From Chloroherpetonaceae bacterium (lineage in GTDB: Bacteria > Bacteroidota > Chlorobiia > Chlorobiales > Thermochlorobacteraceae), in assembly GCA_033763895.1 (NCBI GenBank), contig JANRJQ010000010.1, positions 686,146 to 750,145 on the forward strand: a DNA stretch of 64,000 bases, given 5' to 3'. Shown here piece by piece: positions 15,476 through 29,452 of the stretch. The translations under genes and the position numbers were made by a program. Under the pieces are notes generated by a model. That model made no database searches. It saw nothing but the letters and a program-made list of their open reading frames with translations, and was not told the origin of the DNA. How positions within the stretch are numbered: the first letter of the stretch is position 1; the number at the start of each line of letters is the position of its first letter.

Positions 15476-16102
15476 ATGAAATTATACGTTTCAAATAAAG
15501 ACGAAACGCCAAGGATGTTTGAGAATGACTTTATGGAGTTTTTTTCGAGAGTTCATTGGACAGTTCCTCTTTGGGTGTATTCTCCGGTTGTGCTTTATTT
15601 CATTTACTCCGGTTTCTTTGAAAAGAGTATTTCTATGCTGGGTGGTATAGGTCTCTTTATCTTAGGTCTTTTTCTGTGGACAATCGTTGAATATACGCTC
15701 CATCAATTTGTATTTCATTATCATCCCACATCAAAAATCGGAAAACGACTGATTTGGATGTTTCACGGCATTCATCATGATTATCCGAGTGACTCATTAA
15801 GGCTCGTTATGCCGCCTTCAGTCAGTTTACCGCTCGCAATTCTCTTTTTTTATTTCTGGAAGTTTATTTTTGGCATATATGTGGATCTTTTTTTTGCCGG
15901 ATTTATTGTTGGCTATTTATTCTACGATATCGGTCATTATGCCATACATCATTTTCCTATGAAGGGAGCTTATTGGGGTTATATTCGGGAATATCATATG
16001 CGACACCACTTTAAATCTCCTGAGCGTGGCTTCGGTGTAAGTTCACCTTTGTGGGATATCGTATTTCGAACAGGATTTGATATGAAATCGACCAACAAAT
16101 AA
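15476..16102 (+). CDS. Fatty acid hydroxylase / sterol desaturase superfamily membrane protein
   Basis: Integral membrane di-iron oxygenase-fold protein of 208 residues with about four hydrophobic segments. The histidine clusters of the superfamily (PF04116) are complete: HQFVFHYH, HGIHHDYP, HYAIHHF and HMRHHF. The final pattern YHMRHHFKSPERGFGVSSPLWD is close to the Scs7/FA2H fatty acid 2-hydroxylase type. It would use O2 to hydroxylate a lipid acyl chain. The ATG at 15476 is preferred to an upstream TTG. A strong hairpin terminator follows 10 bases after the stop. Exact substrate unknown. Confidence 0.88.
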   Translation: MKLYVSNKDETPRMFENDFMEFFSRVHWTVPLWVYSPVVLYFIYSGFFEKSISMLGGIGLFILGLFLWTIVEYTLHQFVFHYHPTSKIGKRLIWMFHGIHHDYPSDSLRLVMPPSVSLPLAILFFYFWKFIFGIYVDLFFAGFIVGYLFYDIGHYAIHHFPMKGAYWGYIREYHMRHHFKSPERGFGVSSPLWDIVFRTGFDMKSTNK

Positions 16103-16110
16103 GATTGATA

Positions 16111-16145
16111 AGCAAAAAAAGAGCAGGAAATCCTGCTCTTTTGCA
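16111..16145. terminator. Bidirectional hairpin terminator
   Basis: A stem of AAAGAGCAGGA with TCCTGCTCTTT around a two-base AA centre, flanked by A-runs on the left and T-runs on the right, lies between the convergent hydroxylase gene and the adenylate-kinase-like gene. It can end transcription on both strands. Confidence 0.8.
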
Positions 16146-16160
16146 TTATGGATAAAATGA

Positions 16161-16949
16161 TTAAGCCCCGGAATTGGAGATGAAATGGAACATATTCAAA
16201 AACTTCATGATATCGGAAGTGACATCACGAGCAGAAAGCACAACATAATCTCCCCGATCCTCCACAGAAAGTAATTCATGTTTTCTCTTCTCATATTCAA
16301 ATCGATCGATACATGTTTTGAACAGTGTTGCCTTCCCAGTAAAAATAAGCCACTTGATGAGCCCGTGAGATCTTAAGTAATACTCTCCGATTTTACGCTT
16401 TTGAACCTCCGGACGAATGTCAACACTATGCCCGATTCTTGCAACAGTACTCTCTTTCATCCGGCGAATAGATTCAGCCGGTTTAACTTCCAATACAGCA
16501 ATCAAGGCATAAATATGATGCTTCTCAAGGATTGATTGGAAGTGACGAATTTGAGCTTCGGAGTGTGGATAACCGACGACGATAAATGGCCGATTGTAAT
16601 ATTGATCAGGATGTAAGGCTTTTGTAAGAAAAGTATTAAATGCCCACTCAGCGATTTTAATAGCCAGTTGATCTGGTAAATAGTATCCTTCAGATAAGCA
16701 AAGGCGAATAACTTCGGCTTCATGTGCATCTTCAGGATGATACTTTGAAATCCATTCGTTGAATTGAAAGATTTCATTTTCTAATTCATCTTTCATTGCT
16801 AATGCTTGTGTATGCCTTCCTGAATAAGTCATACCGCCTACCACAATACAGCACGCTGAATCCGGAGAAAGATTTTGAAATTCTTCAGCGGTAAGAATAT
16901 TGGGAAGCGAGAGTTGCTCGACTGCGGAAAAAGGACTCGGGTTTGTCAT
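16161..16949 (-). CDS. Adenylate-kinase-like protein with degenerate P-loop
   Basis: A 262-residue protein whose layout follows nucleoside monophosphate kinases but whose key residues are changed. The first strand-loop is CIVVGGMTYSGRHTQA (residues 34-49) in the place of the GGPGSGKGTQ P-loop; the catalytic lysine is replaced by Arg45 and the loop has one extra residue. Next come SEGYYLPDQLAIKIAEWA, matching the GxLVPDExV segment, FIVVGYPHSEAQIRHF, matching LDGFPRTxxQ, and ALIAVLEVKPAESIRRM, matching the strand and DxxxxRM after it. About 33 residues precede the domain. Catalytic activity is doubtful; a regulatory nucleotide sensor is one guess. Confidence 0.6.
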   Translation of the reverse strand: MTNPSPFSAVEQLSLPNILTAEEFQNLSPDSACCIVVGGMTYSGRHTQALAMKDELENEIFQFNEWISKYHPEDAHEAEVIRLCLSEGYYLPDQLAIKIAEWAFNTFLTKALHPDQYYNRPFIVVGYPHSEAQIRHFQSILEKHHIYALIAVLEVKPAESIRRMKESTVARIGHSVDIRPEVQKRKIGEYYLRSHGLIKWLIFTGKATLFKTCIDRFEYEKRKHELLSVEDRGDYVVLSARDVTSDIMKFLNMFHFISNSGA

Positions 16950-17143
16950 AACTGGAAAAAAATGTTGGTTAAAGATGGCTTAAACCGAGAGAAGCTTTTT
17001 CTTCCATCGATTTATTGATTAAAATGTAGTTACGATAATAAGATTAATTTTGATGTTAGAAAAAACTTCTTTGATGACAGCTTACTAATGCTTACTGAAA
17101 TATGATAATTCCAGTCTCGATTGTAAGAAAAAAGATTGACCTA

Positions 17144-18301
17144 ATGTCCTTCAGAAAAATTAAGTGGTGGATTTATATCATCTTTTATTTATTCCTTTTC
17201 ATAGTAACGGCCTGCAACAATAAAAAAGCTACTGATGAAATTGTCATTGGGCTTGTGAGTAGCAGTACCGGAGAAGATAGTTACTATGGGCGATCGATTT
17301 CGGGGGGTGCGTTACTTGCCGTTGAAGAAATAAATTCAAAAGGGGGGATTCGTGGAAAAACAATTCGACTCGTTACTTATGACGACAGTTCTGATTACCG
17401 GGCAACATTATCAGCAGCAGAAGATTTAATCCTAACACATAACCCGATTGCGATCATAGGTGAAGTTGTCAGCAATCGAACATTTGCCCTTATTACTGTT
17501 GCAAATCGGCATCAAATTCCAATTTTAAGCCCAGCCGCCACAGGTTCTTCCTTGATTCAAAAAAGCAATTACTTTTATCGGTTCTCATTTTCGGACAGCG
17601 CTCAAGCAAAGGCACTCGTTGAGATGATGAAATCTTTTCAAGCACAAAGCGGGCAAGAAACGCCTTTAACAGTAACGGTCTTAAAGGATGTTCATAGTAA
17701 TTATTCGGTAGGTTTAACAGAATACTTTAGAAAAGAGTGTGAAGGAAATTTCAGAATCTTGGCTGAAATCGCTCTTGATGATACAGACTCCCCATTTAAG
17801 GAAGAGCTTGATTTGGTTTCCAAATTAAAACCGGATGTTATTTTCTTACCGCTTTATCATAAGGCTTCTAAGGAATTGATTGGTATGATTCGTGAACGCA
17901 AAATAAAATCGTTAATATTTTGCGGTGATGGCATTTTAGGTTCGCACTTATCAGACGAGGAAATACGCCGTTTTGAAGGTGTGGTCTTTTGCTCTCATCA
18001 TTTTGTCGAGGATTCGACAAAAGAACTAAAAGAGTTTTCAGAAAGGTATCGACTTTATAACCGCTCTGCGGCGGATGAACTAAGTACACTTACATACGAT
18101 GCGACAAATTTATTGATTTTAGCTCTCGAAGAATCAATGAAAAAGACTGATACACCAACAACCAAAGTTTTAATTGAAGAACTTAATCTGATTAATTCCT
18201 ATAAAGGTTTAACAGGCGAGCGAAAATTTTCTCAACGAGCCGGTCAATCTGAACCATTTCTTGTGCGTATTAAGTCTCAAAAATTAGAAAAGGTACAATA
18301 A
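17144..18301 (+). CDS. Periplasmic-binding lipoprotein, branched-chain amino acid (LivK-like) type
   Basis: Extracytoplasmic ligand receptor of the Peripla_BP_6 family. From the ATG at 17144 the signal is short and strongly hydrophobic and ends in lipobox VTAC; an ATG 42 bases upstream is possible but adds a charged leader. The mature part begins IVIGLVSSSTGEDSYYGRSI and continues with GGALLAVEEINSKGGIRGK and IAIIGEVVSNRTFAL, the classic fold-type I pattern in LivJ/LivK proteins. About 385 residues is normal. No Liv permease or ATPase genes are nearby; the next gene is an APC-type amino acid permease with its own regulatory region. It may serve an unlinked ABC importer or a sensing role. Confidence 0.82.
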   Translation: MSFRKIKWWIYIIFYLFLFIVTACNNKKATDEIVIGLVSSSTGEDSYYGRSISGGALLAVEEINSKGGIRGKTIRLVTYDDSSDYRATLSAAEDLILTHNPIAIIGEVVSNRTFALITVANRHQIPILSPAATGSSLIQKSNYFYRFSFSDSAQAKALVEMMKSFQAQSGQETPLTVTVLKDVHSNYSVGLTEYFRKECEGNFRILAEIALDDTDSPFKEELDLVSKLKPDVIFLPLYHKASKELIGMIRERKIKSLIFCGDGILGSHLSDEEIRRFEGVVFCSHHFVEDSTKELKEFSERYRLYNRSAADELSTLTYDATNLLILALEESMKKTDTPTTKVLIEELNLINSYKGLTGERKFSQRAGQSEPFLVRIKSQKLEKVQ

Positions 18302-27010: not shown

Positions 27011-27502
27011 ATGAAGAAAATGAAATCGCCGATTGAACAGCCGATGCGGGTCGTTGAATTTCTTAATTACAACAGCGATGAAAAGGTCGAAATCCCGCTT
27101 TATGAAGCAAGAATCTCTGCCGGGTTCCCGTCGCCCGCCTATGATGGGGTTGATACGAAACTTGATTTGAATGATTTGCTCATCCGTAACCGCACGGCAA
27201 CGTTTTTCATTCGCGTAGAAGGTGAATCAATGAAAGAAGCGGGAATCGAGAATGGCGATATTCTCATTGTTGATCGCTCAATGCCGGCGATGGACGGCAA
27301 CATCGTGATTGCCGTTGTCAATAATGAATTTTTGGTTAAACGATACCGCAAGATTTCGGGCAAACATTTTCTTGTTCCCGAAAACCCCGACTACGCGCCC
27401 ATTGAGATTACACCTGAAATGGAAGCAGATATATGGGGTGTGGTCACGGCTTCGATACATCAATTTGTAAGAAGAAATGGCAGCAAAAGTCGGGCTGGTT
27501 GA
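27011..27502 (+). CDS. umuD: UmuD-like S24 peptidase, DNA polymerase V subunit
   Basis: Self-cleaving LexA-fold protein that, after RecA-stimulated cleavage, becomes the accessory subunit of DNA polymerase V. The Ala37-Gly38 cleavage site (ISAGFPSPA), nucleophile Ser73 (VEGESM) and general base Lys110 (FLVKRYRK) are spaced exactly as in E. coli UmuD (Gly25, Ser60, Lys97). The N-terminal arm is about 13 residues longer than in E. coli and the protein ends with a basic tail. The last 26 bases overlap the umuC start. No LexA box is recognisable upstream, so SOS control is assumed only from the family. Confidence 0.92.
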   Translation: MKKMKSPIEQPMRVVEFLNYNSDEKVEIPLYEARISAGFPSPAYDGVDTKLDLNDLLIRNRTATFFIRVEGESMKEAGIENGDILIVDRSMPAMDGNIVIAVVNNEFLVKRYRKISGKHFLVPENPDYAPIEITPEMEADIWGVVTASIHQFVRRNGSKSRAG

Positions 27503-28835
27503 TTGCAATAACTTCTATGTTTCGTGTGAGCGTGTTTTTCAGCCGCATTTGCGAAAGAAGCCCGTTGCCGTTCTCTCCAATAATGACGGCGTTGTGATAG
27601 CACGGTCGAATGAATTAAAGAAACTTGGAATCCCCGCGGGCGCCCCATATTTCAAATGGAAAAAGCAAATCGAAGCGCTTAACGCCTACATTCTATCGTC
27701 TAATTATCTTCTTTACGGTGATATGTCGATGCGGGTAATGGAAACCATTCAATACCACGCGGAAGAGGTTGAGATTTACTCTATTGATGAAGCCTTTATT
27801 TCAATTACACCTGAATATGGAAAAACCTATCGAGAGTTTGGATTGAAACTCAAAGATGCAATTCAGCAATGGACGGGGATTCCTGTGAGCATTGGACTCA
27901 GTAGCACAAAAACACTCGCCAAAATCGCCAATCATTTAGCAAAAAAAGAAGAAGTGCACGAGGGCGTGTGTGACCTTGAAGAATATGACCCCGAGCGAAA
28001 ATGTTTTTCTCGTTTACCAATCGATGAAGTGTGGGGTTTTGGCAGGCGAATCACAAAACGGCTTAATGAGCAAGGAATGAATACGATTGCCGATGTGCTC
28101 AAAAAGCCGGAGAGTTGGGTGCGGAAAGAACTGCATGTTACAGGATTAAAAACCGTGAAAGAATTGAAAGGAACGCCTTGCCTAACGCTTGAAGAGGTTG
28201 AACCGGAAAGGAAATCAATGGTGCACTCGCGCTCCTTTGGTCGGCCAATCACATCTTTTGAAGAAATGACAGAGGCTGTAAGTAACTATGCCGAGAGAGG
28301 TGCCATCAAACTTCGCAAAGCAGGCTTAGCCCCGCGGATGCTTACGGTTTTTATTCTCACGAACCGTTTTAATCTGAACAAACCCCAGTACTCGAATCAG
28401 TGCGCTGTGACACTGCCAACGCCAACAAATTTTACCCCAAAATTAATTGACGCTGCACTTTCAGGCCTCAAGAAAATCTTCAAACCCGGTTACGATTACC
28501 AAAAAGCAGGGATTCTTTTTACCGATCTCACCCCTGAAGATACCCTGCAACAAAACCTTTTTGACGATGTGAGCGAAGCTGAATTAGAGAAACGACAAAA
28601 ACTAAGCCAAATGGTTGATGACCTCAACAATCGATTCGGGAGAAATACCATTAGTTTTGCGGCTTCGGGCACAAAGCGCAGTTGGCGAATGAAATCAGAT
28701 TTACTTTCCCCACAGTTTACAACCAGTTGGGATGAACTTCTGGTTGTAAAAACAGCACAGAGCGATGTACAAAGCGAAGAAAATGGACAAGAAAGTGGTG
28801 GAGAAAATAAAGACCCGCTTGTCGGAAAAAAATAA
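27477..28835 (+). CDS. umuC: DNA polymerase V catalytic subunit UmuC
   Basis: Y-family translesion DNA polymerase of 452 residues. Catalytic carboxylates are Asp9 (GLVDCNNFYVSCERVF), Asp104 and Glu105 (YSIDEAF). SNNDGVVIARSNE and GIPAGAPYFK are specific to UmuC rather than DinB. The thumb helix-hairpin-helix region is around VWGFGRRITKRL, and the little-finger domain and a C-terminal segment with ASGTKRSWRMKSDLLSPQFTTSW are present. The tail is acidic and low-complexity. It is translated with umuD by overlap; a hairpin follows. Confidence 0.95.
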   Translation: MAAKVGLVDCNNFYVSCERVFQPHLRKKPVAVLSNNDGVVIARSNELKKLGIPAGAPYFKWKKQIEALNAYILSSNYLLYGDMSMRVMETIQYHAEEVEIYSIDEAFISITPEYGKTYREFGLKLKDAIQQWTGIPVSIGLSSTKTLAKIANHLAKKEEVHEGVCDLEEYDPERKCFSRLPIDEVWGFGRRITKRLNEQGMNTIADVLKKPESWVRKELHVTGLKTVKELKGTPCLTLEEVEPERKSMVHSRSFGRPITSFEEMTEAVSNYAERGAIKLRKAGLAPRMLTVFILTNRFNLNKPQYSNQCAVTLPTPTNFTPKLIDAALSGLKKIFKPGYDYQKAGILFTDLTPEDTLQQNLFDDVSEAELEKRQKLSQMVDDLNNRFGRNTISFAASGTKRSWRMKSDLLSPQFTTSWDELLVVKTAQSDVQSEENGQESGGENKDPLVGKK

Positions 28836-28966: not shown

Positions 28967-29452
28967 TTATGCCGCGTTTGAGGGAGTCCTTTTGAGATTA
29001 AGTGAAATCGCTTGGGTTTTTAACAATTCCTTGCACCGTGAAATTTGCTCTTTTGTGACTGTACTAAACATGCTTCCAACCGCTGAACTCGCCAACTGTT
29101 TTGCAACATACTGATTCAATGAAAGTCCGGAAGCGTCTGCCAAGCGAATCAGCGCGGAGTACAACGGTTTCGGGATGCGAAGTGGAACGCGAGCAAAATT
29201 TTCATCGATGGTTTCATTCATCGGTTCGGGAATTAAACCGCCGACTTCTAATTGTCGTTTGAAGAAATCAATTTTCATCATTTGAACAATAGAAACGGCA
29301 TGTTCAATTGAATCGCCATCCAAAATGTGGACATGCTTTCCTAATTGGGTAATTCCGATTAAAAACCCGCCCCCTTCACTTTGTGGAATAGGTTTAATTT
29401 CAATTGGATAATGAAGACCAAGGTAGTATTCAAGCGTTTTCATATCAGTCAT
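28967..29452 (-). CDS. HicB-like protein with ribbon-helix-helix domain
   Basis: A 161-residue protein. The N-terminal half is a HicB-type fold (YPIEIKPIPQSEGGGFLIGI...LDGDSIEHAVSIV...LEVGGLIPEP), the partial RNase-H-like domain of HicB antitoxins. The C-terminal half has VPLRIPKPLYSALIRLADA and SLNQYVAKQLAS, a ribbon-helix-helix DNA-binding motif. No HicA toxin gene is seen within 300 bases on either side, so this is an orphan antitoxin-like regulator. ATG at 29452 is used; an ATG three codons later is equally good. Confidence 0.75.
   Translation of the reverse strand: MTDMKTLEYYLGLHYPIEIKPIPQSEGGGFLIGITQLGKHVHILDGDSIEHAVSIVQMMKIDFFKRQLEVGGLIPEPMNETIDENFARVPLRIPKPLYSALIRLADASGLSLNQYVAKQLASSAVGSMFSTVTKEQISRCKELLKTQAISLNLKRTPSNAA

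Follow-up and report, generated by a model that had tools for sequence, protein, structure and literature searches.

A conserved adenylate kinase paralogue without the P-loop lysine in Chloroherpetonaceae and Thermochlorobacter relatives, a likely pseudoenzyme

We describe here a lineage-specific paralogue of adenylate kinase (ADK), called pseudo-ADK in what follows, which occurs in some relatives of green sulfur bacteria and which selection has probably preserved for a binding role, most likely toward a protein partner. Its gene is the open reading frame at 16161..16949 on the (-) strand of the window, that is, of the whole 64,000-nucleotide stretch of DNA that was analysed, and it encodes 262 aa from an ATG start. 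The protein is arranged as an N-terminal tail (~residues 1-30), an ADK-like domain (~33-253), and a short C-terminal tail. By descent, as read from profiles and alignments, and by its predicted fold, it belongs to the ADK family. The residues that were lost make it likely that the protein is without kinase activity, and an action through protein binding is plausible. Among the matches listed in searches of open-access literature there was no account of this family, and in the passages of PMC9318685 adenylate kinase was not mentioned.

Homology to Adenylate Kinases and Predicted Structure

The similarity to ADK claimed in the first-pass annotation of this DNA was significant in profile (HMM) searches. 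The window protein matched TIGR01351 at residues 39-169 with an E value of 1e-5 and 25.3 bits, below the curated cut-off of 168, and the Pfam ADK profile at residues 42-198 with an E value of 9.5e-4 and 19.7 bits, below the cut-off of 26.8. Both profiles hit all nine aligned members of the family, the best values being 3.4e-14 for TIGR01351 and 2.7e-10 for Pfam ADK. With a profile of the pseudo-ADK family the solved ADK 4ntz was recovered (E 2.4e-6); phmmer with the window protein alone gave no match among the PDB sequences at E values up to 10. The alignment with ADKs comprised 9 full-length pseudo-ADK proteins (8 genomes and the window) and 27 ADKs, and in it the named ADK segments followed one another in the order that had been claimed. 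The E. coli residue numbers and offsets given for pseudo-ADK positions, those of the LID included, are the ones we take to be correct.

The AlphaFold2 model of the window protein, obtained with a 9-row alignment, had a pLDDT of 79.8 and a pTM of 0.81, with residues 167-178 below 50. On this predicted model the ADK fold was present: the top matches of Foldseek were ADKs and UMP-CMP kinases (best 3cm0, 1.7e-8), and the best alignment given by VIA-align was with 2cdn (Z 15.7, rmsd 3.4, 184 residues aligned). For a control we modelled the true ADK encoded in this genome from an 8-row alignment (pLDDT 91.4); its first helix started from Lys13. The helix that follows strand 1 in the pseudo-ADK model begins at Y42, the Gly10 position, three residues earlier than in the control, and the model thus suggests that the anion/phosphate-binding loop is shortened.

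The P-Loop

The altered P-loop was placed by alignment at residues G39-A49 (GMTYSGRHTQA; 16803..16835 on the (-) strand, counted from the ORF start at 16949), with Arg45 at the lysine position. In the profile and multiple alignments, G39-M-T-Y-S-G-R45-H-T-Q was paired without gaps with G7-x-P-G-x-G-K13-G-T-Q. The inserted residue that had been described in this loop is therefore absent and was rejected as a misalignment; it appeared because the count had begun at G38, a position where all 8 other aligned members have Glu, the first P-loop glycine being G39. The replacement of the lysine by Arg45 stood, and homologues do share the changed loop: Arg was found in each of the 9 full-length members, and the incomplete copies of G233 and G133 have it too, so that it is present in all 11 genomes carrying the gene. 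Among these 11 genomes there was no close homologue with an intact GKGT loop, and a sporadic mutation was rejected given the presence of Arg in every one of them. The GxPGxGKGT loop with its lysine, a feature of active ADKs, is thus not found in pseudo-ADK.

The P-loop is defined as Gly7-Lys13 in PMC12548092, and the Lys13Gln form of ADK is inactive according to PMC4325324. In PMC3019153, the K14A form of CoaE, altered at the P-loop lysine, had lost only 19% of kcat; as most of kcat was retained, the loss of this lysine is not always fatal to activity.

Other Residues of the Active Site

Considering the 35 columns that were invariant across the 27 ADKs, the same residue was kept in all nine pseudo-ADK members at 8 of them, and in at least eight members at 12. 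In the P-loop, the P9 position is T in seven members and P in two, G10 is replaced in all nine (Y or R), and the G14 position is H or Y. The NMP-binding segment appeared remodelled in the alignment (~residues 60-75; 16725..16772, (-) strand): the T31 position is Phe in every member (F63 in the window protein), the R36 position is S, A, T or E and Arg in none (S68 in the window protein), and E65-W66 and K69-Y70 are invariant among the nine. The next segment, VGYPHSE (V125-E131; 16557..16577, (-) strand, by alignment), has V125 for Asp84 and H129 for Arg88. Asp84 of DGFPR is missing throughout, being Val in eight members and Ala in one, and R88 is kept in eight, His being found in the window protein; indeed VGYPHS is confined to this protein and the other 8 read GYPRT. 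The pair of arginines that marks the AMP site of an active ADK, Arg36 and Arg88, was consequently not complete in the family (0/9 and 8/9, respectively).

The segment equivalent to the LID (~residues 167-178; 16416..16451, (-) strand) was delimited by alignment and model, with low model confidence, and R171, G173, H174 and D177 are invariant in it among the 9 aligned members. The R156 position is His, in a region where the LID alignment is unsure, and R171 lies nearby; since that alignment is uncertain, with the pLDDT below 50, R171 could replace R156. The position of E. coli R123 is Ser, Ala or Lys, and that of R167 is Arg in six members and Lys in three. On the other hand, the equivalents of R119 (R163) and D159 (D177) were kept in all nine, and G7, G12, P60, G85 and P87 were also retained. 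In ADK, R88 binds AMP and R119 orients ATP, as stated in PMC4325324. A family-specific insert was seen in the alignment toward the C-terminus (~residues 211-238, KTC..EYExRKHE..DRGDYVV; 16236..16319, (-) strand). The 9 full-length proteins, which come from two families, have 88 invariant residues.

By comparison with bacterial adk (TIGR01351/Pfam ADK), pseudo-ADK has the same predicted fold and segment order, GYPRT for DGFPRT, LPD for VPD, and the R119 and D159 equivalents, but differs from it in the lack of the P-loop lysine, D84, R36, T31 and R123, in the aromatic-rich NMP segment, in the C-terminal insert, and in a score far under the TIGR01351 cut-off. Like the short-LID bacterial ADK and UMP-CMP kinases (NF001381, TIGR01359), it is without the long zinc-type LID, and the matches to these run to residue ~202; their LID motif GRxDD, however, is RIGHxxD in pseudo-ADK, and the same catalytic losses separate them.

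Selection and Conservation

The dN/dS was calculated over 9 pairs, dS being saturated or not computable in 5 of them, both pairs with the window gene included. In three pairs, all from genus g2, dS was below 1.5 and dN/dS was 0.030, 0.054 and 0.055; a pair from genus g3, with a dS of 2.6, gave 0.029. For true adk, pairs from the same g2 genomes at comparable dS gave 0.029 and 0.067. Purifying selection despite the loss of catalytic residues, which is expected of a pseudoenzyme, was thus measured within g2.

The distribution of this constraint was examined over the 187 columns shared with ADK, separating 34 positions, which we take to be those lining the ligands in ADK, from the remaining 153; for both proteins the sequences came from the same 7 genomes of family f1 (the family of the window). 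The identity of true adk was 0.975 at the ligand-lining positions and 0.631 elsewhere. For pseudo-ADK the corresponding values were 0.822 and 0.692 (permutation p 0.008), and with all 9 members 0.739 and 0.658 (p 0.077). By these comparisons the constraint is now largely distributed over the protein as a whole and no longer strongly concentrated in the cleft, the cleft not being free of it. Such a pattern agrees with a function in binding, and a ligand is possible.

Distribution and Origin

At an E value of 0.001, pseudo-ADK was found in 11 of the 98 genomes of the order: in 9/9 of f1, 2/2 of f2, 0/86 of f3 and 0/1 of f4. When the family profile was run on 394 genomes drawn from the phylum, there were matches in 110, of which 10 were at or below 6.3e-128 and the broken copy of G133 at 4.9e-85; after a gap, the other 99 were at 1.8e-9 or weaker. 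Each of the 19 weaker loci that were read had an ADK ORF in which the P-loop lysine was intact. In L068 and L084, from family f15 of the phylum, the ADK matches were observed inside open frames of ~370-385 aa, longer than ADK; these may be phosphoribosyltransferase-ADK fusions, which are known in Bacteroidota.

An alignment-based search of contigs, which relied on two short patterns and may miss distant relatives, gave 7 loci from 6 isolates, all titled as Chlorobiales, Chloroherpetonaceae or Thermochlorobacter relatives; the gene-bearing records are named Chloroherpetonaceae, Ca. Thermochlorobacteriaceae, Ca. Thermochlorobacter aerophilum and uncultured Chlorobiales. With the same number of short patterns (two only) no relative was found in viral contigs, and the contig search with the single window protein gave no match. 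True adk, counted within f1 as TIGR01351 matches over the cut-off, was present in 8 of its 9 genomes, the miss being G233, an assembly of 150 contigs.

A link with phototrophy was considered and rejected. The FMO protein family PF02327 had matches in 95 of the 98 genomes of the order, and so its members are probably phototrophs; as most of the genomes with this family have no pseudo-ADK, phototrophy does not explain the distribution. In the tree, which carried a long-branch warning, the 9 members were separated from the 27 ADKs by branches of 5.0 and 2.2 on either side of the midpoint, and because of these very long branches the parent ADK lineage is not readable from it. The branch of the window protein was longer (0.63). 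The copy in G133 (L012, G133:C33:38366-39132) has two frame breaks, due either to an assembly error or to real decay or loss.

Genomic Context

The neighbours of pseudo-ADK in the window are a convergent fatty-acid-hydroxylase gene and a divergent gene for a periplasmic binding protein. That the gene stands alone, as had been noted before, was borne out in the window, and no adjacent gene is common to the genera. A terminator-like hairpin with a T run, nearly symmetric, lies between the convergent genes just past the stop codon (16117..16142, (-) strand, by consensus match only); in 15900-17300 there were 3 terminator-like sites against a shuffle mean of 1.0, and the region immediately upstream of the ORF gave no promoter-like site.

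ORFs of at least 80 aa were clustered from 11 stretches of 10 other genomes together with the first 40 kb of the window. Among these stretches there was no adjacent gene shared across genera, and therefore the context yields no function. Pseudo-ADK itself was set aside, as was cluster C1, an artefact made up of ORFs antisense to it. The widest of the others, C2, covered 4 stretches, and the two C2 proteins scanned were class A penicillin-binding proteins with BiPBP_C; it was rejected as an operon partner because it is directly downstream only in three genomes of g3, lying ~3.4 kb off in G133 (genus g4). Most clusters present in 3 stretches were confined to g2. It was observed that in the three g3 loci (L043, L044 and L049) the C2 gene follows downstream in the same orientation after ~50-100 bases, so that the two may form a local operon; the copy in L044 encodes a class A penicillin-binding protein that has a BiPBP_C domain, whereas the L043 and L049 copies were placed in the cluster purely by similarity to it.

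Two further observations concern other parts of the window. At 27011-28835 there is an overlapping pair of UmuD-like (Peptidase S24) and UmuC-like (IMS, IMS_C, DUF4113) genes, which looks like an SOS-type translesion polymerase operon. For the ORF at 28967-29452 (161 aa) Pfam gave no hit at 1e-3, and the ORFs listed nearby included no obvious partner of HicA size; by eye it resembles HicB-type antitoxins.

Possible Functions

In the explanation that we favour, a paralogue of ADK would have retained the fold of the family without its phosphate-binding loop and without most of the residues that bind AMP, ATP and Mg, and would have gained the C-terminal insert and the conserved aromatic-rich segments, and selection would keep it for binding, most likely of a protein, with or without a weakly bound nucleotide. 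The pseudo-kinase proposed in the first-pass annotation fits, apart from its inserted residue, because many other catalytic positions are gone and the dN/dS, within g2, is about as low as that of true adk. A ligand may still bind, considering the kept R119 and D159, the R88 of eight members and the residual conservation of the cleft. Mammalian AK4, which PMC4793738 presents as reported inactive, with this inactivity disputed, and as binding the ADP/ATP translocase, is likewise an ADK-family protein proposed to act by binding, although it is mitochondrial and eukaryotic and is likened here by description. Also by description, and in a different family, the dynein light intermediate chain, a P-loop pseudoenzyme with a Ras-like fold (PMC4359372), has a nucleotide-binding fold turned to partner binding. 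As partner of pseudo-ADK, ADK itself or a protein of energy metabolism are only guesses. A dedicated regulator of energy metabolism in the Chloroherpeton/Thermochlorobacter branch of the green sulfur bacteria and related organisms, binding for example the true ADK or an ATP-linked complex, is conceivable but rather doubtful.

A pseudoenzyme that senses nucleotides, binding AMP or ADP without turnover and reporting the energy charge to a partner through a change of shape, would agree with R88 in eight members, with a low-confidence and possibly mobile LID segment, and with a fold that binds AMP and ATP in ADK; nevertheless, R36, T31 and other residues of the AMP site are changed, and with His for R88 in the window protein a sensing through R88 would not be family-wide, so that we consider it unlikely. 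It is more improbable still that the protein is an active kinase or phosphotransferase whose chemistry is altered, with a different phosphate substrate handled by Arg45 together with the remaining basic residues (equivalents of R119, R167 and, in most members, R88). The invariant R163 and D177, the R88 of eight members, the Arg or Lys at the R167 position, the excess conservation of the cleft and the tolerance of CoaE to the loss of its lysine would be explained by it, but Gly10 is replaced in all members and Pro9 in 7/9, Asp84, Arg36 and Arg123 are gone, the window protein is also without R88, and the place where the helix begins in the model points to a shortened loop. As for a decaying paralogue that drifts like a pseudogene toward loss, to which the broken copy in G133, the longer branch of the window protein and catalytic positions less conserved than in true adk could be attributed, the dN/dS (0.03-0.055 in three pairs, those whose dS is under 1.5) and the retention of the gene are strongly against it: it is full-length in 8 genomes and the window, with its 88 invariant residues in two families, and was found in 11/11 genomes of f1 and f2. 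This reading is thus very improbable.

Conclusions

The annotation of pseudo-ADK as an adenylate kinase on the basis of similarity would probably mislead. Since true adk accompanies it and the lineages that carry it are well bounded, the change can be located on a tree and its function is testable. A core metabolic enzyme with conserved relatives that are probably inactive, as in this case, shows how enzyme folds turn into regulators or scaffolds.
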